A program made the translations under genes and the position numbers. From assembly GCF_002729955.1 (NCBI RefSeq), contig NZ_PBYA01000034.1, forward strand, positions 1 to 64,000: a DNA stretch of 64,000 nt, written 5' to 3'. Each line of letters opens with the position of its first letter. Positions within the stretch are counted from its first letter, which is position 1. This document shows positions 29,684-31,423 of this stretch, piece after piece. Origin of the DNA: Salinisphaera sp. Its GTDB lineage: Bacteria > Pseudomonadota > Gammaproteobacteria > Nevskiales > Salinisphaeraceae. The notes under the pieces are model-generated. The model made no database searches. It saw only the letters and a program-made list of their open reading frames with translations, and was not told the origin of the DNA.

Positions 29684-29898
29684 TCCGCGAATGAACGCGA
29701 AGAAACGCGAATGAAGTCAGCAGGCAGACAGGTCCAGGGCGTGTGATGAGCCCTTCAAGCCTTGTGCGCCGTTTGCCCAATTACAAGAAGATTCCTGGCT
29801 CTGGATAACGTCCAGCATGCAGCGGGGACACTAGTCCACCCGGCCTTCGAGCGCTCTGTCTTCCGCCTTATTCGCGTTTCTTCGCGTTCATTTGCGGA
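29684..29898. mobile_element. MITE-like element with 31-bp terminal inverted repeats
   Basis: The left arm 29684-29715 and the right arm 29868-29898 are inverted copies of each other with about 29 of 31 matching positions (core GAACGCGAAGAAACGCGAA). They enclose about 150 bp with no ORF of note. No target-site duplication is obvious. A shortened copy of the arm lies at 46451-46476. No transposase is in the window, so mobility is inference. Confidence 0.5.
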
Positions 29899-30010
29899 CA
29901 ACCCGCTTTGCCAAGCCGGCCACCTGGCAAGAGAAGGCTCACGCGGACGGCGCATCCTTAGCGCGTTCGATCATCGTGTATGCCGAGTGATTGTGGATCG
30001 ATGAGGAGTC

Positions 30011-30079
30011 GGCTGATTCAGCGACGCCAGAGCAGGGCTCCCGCGGCTTGTCCGCGGGATGCGATCGCTGATGTCAGCC
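30011..30079 (-). other. Hairpin unit 1 of the folE2-tail array
   Basis: Outer stem GGCTGA (30011-30016)/TCAGCC (30074-30079); middle stem CAGCGA (30019-30024)/TCGCTG (30065-30070); inner stem CCCGCGG (30040-30046)/CCGCGGG (30052-30058) with loop CTTGT. Confidence 0.75.
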
Positions 30080-30173
30080 GGACTTCGAATCGAACGAAGG
30101 CTTAGCCGGTGGAGCGATCCTTATCGTGTTCGATCATCGCGTAGGCCGAATGATTGTGAATCGATGAGGAGTC

Positions 30174-30240
30174 GGCATTCTCGGCAACTTGAGCAGGGTT
30201 CCCGCCGCTTGTCGGCGGGATGCGCTTGCCGATGTATGCC
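30174..30240 (-). other. Hairpin unit 2, with compensated base changes
   Basis: Outer stem GGCAT (30174-30178)/ATGCC (30236-30240); middle stem TCGGCAA (30181-30187)/TTGCCGA (30226-30232); inner stem CCCGCCG (30201-30207)/CGGCGGG (30213-30219) with loop CTTGT. All three stems differ from units 1 and 3 on both strands, so pairing is preserved. Confidence 0.75.
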
Positions 30241-30334
30241 GGACTTCGAATCGACCGAAGCCTCAGCCGGTCGGCCGATCCTTGTCGTGTTCGATCATCG
30301 CGTAGGCCGAGTGATTGTGAATCGATGAGGAGTC

Positions 30335-30403
30335 GGCTGATTCAGCGACGACAGAGCAGGGTTCCCGCGGCTTGGCCGCGGGATGCGATCGCTGATGTCA
30401 GCC
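30335..30403 (-). other. Hairpin unit 3, adjacent to folE2
   Basis: Outer stem GGCTGA (30335-30340)/TCAGCC (30398-30403); middle stem CAGCGA (30343-30348)/TCGCTG (30389-30394); inner stem CCCGCGG (30364-30370)/CCGCGGG (30376-30382) with loop CTTGG. It starts about 20 bases beyond the folE2 stop and could serve as its terminator, though no T-run follows. Confidence 0.75.
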
Positions 30404-30425
30404 GGACTTCGAATCGAACGAAGGC

Positions 30426-31292
30426 TTAGCCGGTCGGCCGATCCTTGTCGTGTTCGATCATCGCGTAGGCCGAATGGTTGTGAATCGATTCGAAGTTCTC
30501 CGACTCCACAACGTAATACCGAAAACGCGGGTCGTCGTTCAGGCACTGTGCGACATCGCGCACCACGTCTTCGACAAACTTCGGGTTCTCGTAGGCGCGT
30601 TCGGTCACGGACTTTTCGTCCACGCGCTTGAGAATGCCGTAAAGCTCGGATGATGCCTGGGATTCCGCGATTTCGATGAGCTCTTCCAGCCAGAAGAATT
30701 CGGTCGCGCGTACGCGGATGGTGATCAGCGAGCGCTGGTTATGGGCGCCGTAGTCGGAAATATCCTTGGAGCAGGGGCACAGGGTGGTCACCGGCACCTT
30801 CACTTCGACATACAGATCGGTACGCTCGCCGCGCTGGTCGCCGATGAAGGTGACGTTATAGTCCATCACGCCTTTTTCCCGGGTCACCGGCGCGTACTTG
30901 TCGATGAAGTAGGGGAAGCTCATCTCGATATGGCCGTTGTCGGCTTCGAGACGCTCGGTCATCTCACCGAGCATGGCCCGGAACGAATCGACGGTAATCT
31001 GGTGCTCGTGCGCGTTGAGGATCTGCACGAAGCGGGACATGTGCGTGCCCTTGAAGTGGTGCGGCAGGTTCACGTACATGCCGAAGGTGGCCACCGTGCT
31101 CTGGTGGCCGCCCACGCGCTGCTCGATCGATACCGGGTGGCGTATGTCGCAGATCCCGACCTTGTTGATCGCCAGATGACGCTGATCGGCTCGGCTCTGG
31201 ACATCCTCGATCTCGGCACCGGTACGCGCATTGTCGCGCGCGTTGGAAGCGGTGTTCTTGCTGGCGCCCTGCGCCTTGGCCACGGTACTCAT
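30426..31292 (-). CDS. folE2: GTP cyclohydrolase FolE2 (type IB)
   Basis: 288 residues. Starts [14 protein letters not shown] at ATG 31292. The catalytic cysteine segment [12 protein letters not shown] and the GAHNQRS motif are those of FolE2, which makes dihydroneopterin triphosphate for folate without needing zinc. In several bacteria it replaces zinc-dependent FolE under zinc limitation. I saw no convincing Zur box upstream. The 3' end is duplicated three times downstream (see the tandem array). Confidence 0.95.
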
Positions 31293-31423
31293 CGTGTTGG
31301 TTCCAGTCAGGCGAATCGGCCGCCGAGCCGATCCAAAGCGCGCCATGTTAGCGCGCGCGGACTCGGCCCACAAAGCGGCTGTGTCTGATTGATGGGGTCG
31401 ATCCGCGCCCTTGCAAGACGCGC

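Follow-up and report, generated by a model that had tools for sequence, protein, structure and literature searches.

How did the end of a folE2 gene come to be present four times over, with a hairpin between each copy and the next? The question is raised by a 64,000-nucleotide stretch of Salinisphaera DNA, referred to here in its entirety as the window, in which the open reading frame of folE2 (GTP cyclohydrolase FolE2; 30426-31373, minus strand) is directly followed by a tandem array. The frame matches NF010200 above its cut-off (E 2.8e-89) and PF02649 (E 2.7e-96), both profiles aligning from residue 56 onward; as listed it opens with TTG, and translation probably begins at the ATG near 31292.

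The folE2 array

TRF places the array at 29933-30489 (period 163, 3.4 copies, score 832). The four tails lie, like the gene, on the minus strand, with duplication edges at 30489, 30326, 30165 and 30002 and hence spacings of 163, 161 and 163 bp, so that the preliminary description of this DNA, in which four folE2 tails repeat every 161-163 bp with hairpins between them, is borne out. The duplicated tail comprises the last 64 nt of the gene, each of the three intervening hairpins spans around 100 nt, and unit identities are 143/164, 155/163 and 140/166. Reading outwards, copy 1 (30426-30489, stop TAA) is folE2's own 3′ end; copy 2 (30263-30326) encodes a peptide identical to that of the gene, with two synonymous and no non-synonymous codons and a change of stop from TAA to TGA; copy 3 (30102-30165, stop TAA) has three synonymous codons and one that is non-synonymous (Pro to Ser); and the outermost copy 4 (29939-30002, stop TGA) has decayed, with four synonymous and six non-synonymous codons. 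The earlier statement that the second and third copies keep the peptide and a stop with only synonymous changes is thus accurate for copy 2 and fails for copy 3.

Unnoticed in the preliminary description was a partner strand inside the gene itself. At the edge of the duplicated segment the gene sequence GAACTTCGAATCGA (X; 30485-30498, minus strand) is able to pair with CGATTCGAAGTC (X′), which is found behind the stops of tails 1 to 3. In unit 1, X′ (TCGATTCGAAGTCC, the reverse complement of X) lies at 30404-30417, and in units 2 and 3 at 30241-30254 and 30080-30093, all on the minus strand. On the same strand, the hairpins occupy 30327-30403 (unit 1), 30166-30240 (unit 2) and 30003-30079 (unit 3), with their conserved cores at 30354-30386 (GCATCCCGC..GCGGGAACCCTGCTC in unit 1), 30191-30223 and 30030-30062, respectively. 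Their folding energies of −51.6, −46.8 and −49.3 kcal/mol correspond to z values of −7.6 (for 30320-30417), −5.8 and −4.8, and for each hairpin none of 200 dinucleotide shuffles was as low in energy. A covariance model matched the unit 1 hairpin with an E-value of 4.5e-22, the unit 1 sequence itself being among those used to build the model.

The hairpin structure is kept across copies. The second inner stem pair is compensated in 74 of 80 copies (shuffle maximum 52) and the foot pair -2/+4 in 88 of 98 (shuffle maximum 56), C-G and G-C being about equally frequent at the latter. Two hairpin types are shared among species, represented in the window by units 1 and 3 and by unit 2, respectively. 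The unit 2 type (TCGGCAA/TTGCCGA) resembles that of genome G008 (TCGACAA/TTGCCGA) and that of G007 (TCGGCAA/TGGCCGA); in G007 the second unit is chimeric, with a 5′ arm of the unit 2 type and a 3′ arm of the other, and its arms mismatch because they come from different hairpin types. The stem differences of the middle copy, previously presented as covariation within the array, are as stated, but the covariation need not have arisen there, given that the type also occurs in G008 and G007. Since the unit 2 type is present in other species, the compensatory change is more plausibly a product of mixing, two older hairpin types having been shuffled.

Dispersal and anatomy of the hairpin

The array stretch was matched in 17 of 61 genomes, some of the matches covering the coding tail only and at least one (G028) being apparently due to chance. 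Salinisphaera relatives have the same layout behind folE2 with one to four tails, some species having degenerate remnants or none, and the contigs of several relatives end within the array. Extra folE2 genes lacking the array are present in G001 and G006 (L051, L052), that of G006 running, as judged by eye, into transposase-like sequence. In the window's own genome the covariance model matched only the three folE2 hairpins, with 150 of 3528 candidates scored, and, as scoring was confined to 150 first-look candidates in each genome, it may contain further weak copies. Elsewhere in the genus the same search, which the preliminary description had recommended, did reveal further copies in four genomes, dispersed and mostly in inverted pairs. 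In a protein tree, the Salinisphaerales clade has arrays in 12 of 15 rows (two degenerate, one deduced from contig ends); a betaproteobacterial array-bearing folE2 clade contains 13 rows, which were all picked for carrying the element and are for that reason uninformative on its frequency, and arrays are absent from 19 class representatives. A single joint clade of all array-bearing folE2 genes is not rejected (AU p 0.363): one shared origin fits the tree, as do separate hits at the same nucleotide.

The core may be written GGTCGCATCCC-stem-GGGNCCCTGCTCC. Among 84,980 species, each represented by one genome, two folE2 tails lie 141-171 bp apart in 11 contigs, among them contigs from Methylophilaceae, Hydrogenophilus, Hydrogenophilaceae and Thiobacillus. 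Outside Salinisphaerales the same kind of core is present in five of the six double-tail contigs read. The exception is L061, a Methylophilaceae folE2 locus, where 1914-2150 of the minus strand holds a tail copy and X′ with a different hairpin (GCCGCGCTAGCGGC..) and no common core. A loose core pattern is also found away from folE2 (G015, G018, G146, G150 and G151), with 43 matches against 8 control matches in 14 genomes. Wider scans, with patterns stricter than this one, found the core in 37 of 117 genomes of a Thiobacillus family set, in 45 of 399 genomes of one betaproteobacterial order and, with a looser pattern than in the order scan, in 9 of 369 genomes class-wide, the G880 match in this last set being apparently due to chance; reversed controls gave no match in the genomes listed in any of the three scans. 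G411 has 24 core copies at no more than one mismatch, a count that exceeds its figure in the order-wide scan since one mismatch was permitted, and its larger, near-identical composites, in which a second hairpin is inverted (L188, L217, L222, L224), mark it as a candidate site of an active form. BIME-like inverted pairs of cores occur in G015, G003, G005, G007 and G012, whereas the arrays at folE2 and rho are head-to-tail. At L155 (around 1320) and L152 (around 1356) core pairs lie, by eye, within apparent open frames of other genes, like in-frame insertions.

IMG/VR yielded two virus-like contigs with the core and no double folE2 tails. In the virus-like contig of L181 (approximately 2400-2630) the hairpin is accompanied by a 61-bp perfect direct repeat and by matching X and X′, and is apparently a young insertion. 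A plasmid collection gave no match to the array, and plasmid and phage collections gave none to the 64-nt hairpin at the sensitivity used. No Rfam family reached its gathering score for the hairpins of the window region or for 12 other loci; a sub-threshold match to mir-718 (E 0.42) overlaps one hairpin of L102.

Read in the direction of the core, the parts are X (within the gene), the gene end as direct repeat 1, X′, a foot stem and GGTCGCAT, followed by a stem, NCCCTGCTCC, a foot stem, X″ and direct repeat 2. At the junction of X″ and repeat 2, inspection by eye finds 3-4 nt that are unpaired with X′ in many copies, forming an internal loop in the outer stem; these are absent from the L062 and hypD sites. 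Direct repeats (score at least 12) flank 41 of 104 copies as against 10 of 795 control comparisons, copies with short flanks having been left out and those within arrays not being independent. The inverted match of X to X′ (score at least 9) is seen in 25 of 73 site clusters and in 13 of 715 swapped controls, and in 22 of the 25 positive clusters X ends 83-97 nt ahead of the core, within a search range of 61-150. The detectable direct repeat varies between 29 and 118 nt in 23 rows with a separate remainder, while repeat and remainder together come to 63-88 nt in 22 of them (the exception, L186, has 132), a measure taken over 31 hand-chosen sites, most already repeat-positive and two of which (L125 and L168) coincide. 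No conserved motif was found in the loop between X and X′ (mean 0.09 bit over 70 representatives), nor was a clear target-site consensus evident by eye at the hand-chosen sites. The remaining 63 of the 104 copies have no direct repeat at the threshold, and 48 of the 73 clusters no X:X′ match at score 9; many of the copies lacking repeats are inverted pairs of the kind seen in REP/BIME repeats.

In 67 pairs of copies with unrelated flanks, likeness extends some 15 nt ahead of the core and 16-18 nt past it, falling to background beyond. Because likeness between loci stops there, the portable part, H, measures some 60-65 bp, its ends being approximate since the pairs were picked by likeness in 14-nt windows close to those ends. 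Short flanks, runs of N and near-duplicates were dropped from the tests of X:X′, loop, stems, cross-locus likeness and tags or boxes. In 19 of 22 folE2 rows with the core, X′ matches the X of its own species at 10/12 or better, the poor fits being L158 (7/12), L063 (8/12) and L029, a false positive of the loose pattern; of 26 rows without the core only two have a fitting X′, both of them arrays with variant hairpins. At the level of sequence, these comparisons demonstrate a dispersed hairpin whose likeness ends near the limits of H and which at many sites is accompanied by direct repeats and by an X′ derived from the target; that the element moves is something we infer from them.

Target genes and an empty site at rho

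Genes bearing the hairpin at their 3′ ends comprise folE2, rho and ilvD, all named by NCBIfam, and a glyoxalase-like gene; those bearing it at their 5′ ends comprise kdsA (twice), murC, murU, hypD, sdhA, Hsp15 and a 2Fe-2S ferredoxin, the names Hsp15, ferredoxin and glyoxalase-like all lying below curated NCBIfam cut-offs. NCBIfam gave no name for L186 or for the gene of L181. The core is directed away from the gene at all 14 sites examined: it is on the strand opposite to the gene at nine 5′ sites, and on the same strand at four 3′ sites and folE2. This orientation agrees with a long duplication of the target, tolerated where it includes the gene end. Since the hairpin is opposite to the gene at the nine 5′-end sites, no RNA strand is common to all sites, and the earlier proposal of selection on a folded RNA is unsupported as the main explanation. 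In the window, a nucleotidyltransferase gene (PF00483; 25816-26487) is by eye like the murU of L151, whose 5′ end bears a hairpin; the covariance model found no hairpin copy at the window gene.

Of 103 genomes with a match, 12 have a second rho tail immediately after rho, and G155 adds a partial copy. The rho arrays contain at least three different hairpin sequences, several of them beyond the strict core pattern, the motif being readable in eight of ten regions (G266 and G260 were unreadable). One pair of genomes, G198 and G199, is identical at 672 of 705 nt over the 3′ part of rho. In G198 a terminator-like hairpin stands approximately 20 nt after rho, and in G199 the same hairpin follows 169 extra bp, consisting of X′, the element and a copy of the rho tail with its stop, all ahead of the native terminator. 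The G199 tail copy matches its own rho tail at 78 of 79 positions, as compared to 71 of 79 between the G198 and G199 tails, and within the 270 nt aligned after its rho stop G198 has no element. We read the two as an empty and an occupied site, the one clean pair of this kind among those read; a gain of the rho 3′ end by horizontal exchange is a conceivable alternative. Downstream sequence has diverged in G159 and G160, the neighbours of G161 by rho.

Just beyond the folE2 array of the window, within 29690-29893, inverted repeats AAGAAACGCGAAT (29700-29712) and ATTCGCGTTTCTT (29870-29882) enclose approximately 157 bp, and a string resembling them, with TTCGCGTTCCTTCGCGG, comes after the rho array of G248 (L311).

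Origin of the array

Our verdict is that this is a real and widespread REP-like hairpin insertion element, marked by a long duplication of the target and a foot derived from it. We consider it probable, if well short of certain, that the folE2 array is the product of such a small non-coding insertion element, which duplicated its target, acquired X′ from it and was amplified in tandem. H would be a portable hairpin made up of a foot stem, the core and a second foot stem. Its entry would leave a direct target duplication, originally of perhaps 65-90 bp, together with an X′ of about 10-12 nt on the 5′ side of H, the reverse complement of the target at the duplication edge. With that edge 60-85 bp inside the gene end the gene would be restored, so that insertions would survive at 3′ and 5′ ends alike. 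At the Salinisphaera folE2 the unit of tail, X′ and H would then have been tandemly amplified to four tails and three hairpins. The reaction may involve a break, or a pair of nicks, some 75 bp apart; H might cap one broken end or be reached via fold-back template switching, and a capped end that opened a few nucleotides off-centre would give the palindromic X′ foot, with fill-in and joining to follow. A direct copy, a short inverted copy, a hairpin and a direct copy, in that order, is the scar expected of capped-end or fold-back routes. Arrays would subsequently grow and mix by unequal recombination, as the chimera in G007 illustrates. The suggestion made from the window alone, of a small element that rebuilds the coding tail as it inserts, repeatedly, at a gene's 3′ end, finds good support in the dispersal of the hairpin and in the local copying of the rho tail, but was drawn too narrowly, 5′ ends being occupied too.

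Searches for Y1 transposases, reverse transcriptases and integron integrases did not find a mobilising enzyme. PF01797 (Y1 transposase) is present in 18 of 20 genomes, and a RAYT partner is not supported: the strict core is found in none of 30 fetched Y1 loci, a part of all Y1 genes in which the core was sought within the flank fetched, and the loose pattern gave two matches only (L239, L249). A reverse transcriptase partner (DGR, retron or group II intron) was likewise set aside, RVT_1 being matched in only six of 20 element-bearing genomes, with some of the assemblies of the other 14 incomplete. Of 20 element-bearing genomes, 15 have an integron integrase above the curated cut-off, as against none of 14 control genomes, the comparison being with these controls rather than with element-free relatives; every genome of both sets matches below the cut-off. 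The window's genome has such an integrase above the cut-off (G000:C31:47200-48141).

It is the integrase counts, along with a hairpin topology similar to that of attC, which favour integron-like cassettes, in which the hairpin would be an attC-like single-strand site moved by the integrase. We nevertheless regard this account as very improbable: none of 98 cores has complementary RYYYAAC/GTTRRRY boxes within 40 nt, nor does any of the three hairpins of the window, no core lies in 17 fetched integrase regions, and five of the 20 element-bearing genomes have no integrase above the cut-off. Integron insertion, moreover, is not known to copy 65-90 bp of its target. Poorer still are the prospects of a lone, ancient event that duplicated the folE2 3′ end in tandem and has simply been followed by decay. 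Copy 4 has decayed and the units are degenerate in G002 and G003, as that account would have it, but the architecture recurs at genes other than folE2 and in further bacterial orders, which refutes it as a full account.

A more serious competitor to the insertion element, though still an unlikely one, is local rearrangement, in which a pre-existing REP-like hairpin stalls replication and snap-back template switching makes X′, the tail and later the array. An inverted X′ and a direct tail, both copied from local sequence, are a fold-back signature, and REP-like core pairs do exist in the same genera; set against these are the G198 rho, without a hairpin in the 270 nt aligned after its stop, the nearly fixed position of X′ before H in unrelated genes, and the near-identity of H at unrelated loci. 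Lower again we would place selection for an RNA structure in the 3′ untranslated region of folE2, with a regulatory or protective role and with the tandem copies as by-products. Strong folding, compensated stems, the recurrence behind folE2 in two clades and a stop codon in all four tails speak for it, but the same core is found opposite to the gene at the 5′ ends of other genes, in inverted pairs and in a virus-like contig, no Rfam family reaches its gathering score, and in G001, of the same genus, there is a single folE2 tail with no covariance-model match.

By the features tested, the hairpin lies outside the GTAG and CGTC groups of REP, attC and Rfam families, and by their general features outside MITEs. 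A search of the literature found, among the papers listed, no title or abstract opening describing these gene-end duplications or the core motif. Among the closest known systems are REP/BIME palindromic repeats, which are mobilised by RAYT and fall into GTAG and CGTC superfamilies; these too are short, palindromic, dispersed, often in inverted pairs and near gene ends (PMC3733652). A target duplication and a target-derived arm are, however, absent from the passages of that paper drawn on here, and the string 'duplicat' does not occur in its main text (PMC3733652). GTAG lies within 20 nt of the core in 0 of 98 cases on the left and 2 of 98 on the right, CGTC in 7 and 14, respectively; no GTAG/CGTC column is conserved, and the core is longer, with paired internal loops. 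The reverse reading starts with GGAG, a putative variant tag.

attC is a single-strand site with an outer stem, an unpaired spacer, an inner stem with a bulged base and a variable terminal stem. Our hairpin is alike in its single-strand fold, outer stem, unpaired spacer, inner stem, variable terminal stem and tandem arrays, and differs in that its cores are without boxes and away from the fetched integrase regions, the 'cassette' being copied from the end of the adjacent gene. MITEs have terminal inverted repeats and target site duplications of approximately 2-10 bp; they are similarly non-coding, short and palindromic with a target duplication, whereas here some 65-90 bp are duplicated and the outer arms derive from the target rather than being terminal repeats borne by the element. 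Tandem inversion duplications, made by snap-back template switching, have direct, inverted and direct copies around a palindromic junction, the same order as here, but at our sites the junction contains a conserved portable hairpin, and the geometry is close to constant. Islands that integrate at gene 3′ ends (tRNA, guaA and similar) likewise duplicate the gene end and leave the gene whole; here, by contrast, no integrase or cargo is seen, units are approximately 105-170 bp and gene 5′ ends are used as well.

A bolder reading, which we offer tentatively and with more doubt than confidence, is that a protein-less hairpin of about 60-65 nt represents a new class of mobile DNA, driven by a host or unlinked enzyme and duplicating about 75 bp, in which the hairpin would cap a broken or nicked target end or serve as an RNA or single-stranded DNA template. 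Were this so, each jump would rewrite a target-matching arm of 10-12 nt, and the ends of essential genes would be occupied harmlessly. Palindromic repeats are common in bacteria and the arrival of most is unexplained. The scar described here is informative in the length of its target copy, its inverted foot and the abrupt end of the likeness between hairpins, and these render the insertion reaction testable. It suggests how an element of this kind may occupy the ends of essential genes such as rho, murC and kdsA in many lineages, and how essential genes may gain duplicated 5′ or 3′ ends and arrays of repeats.
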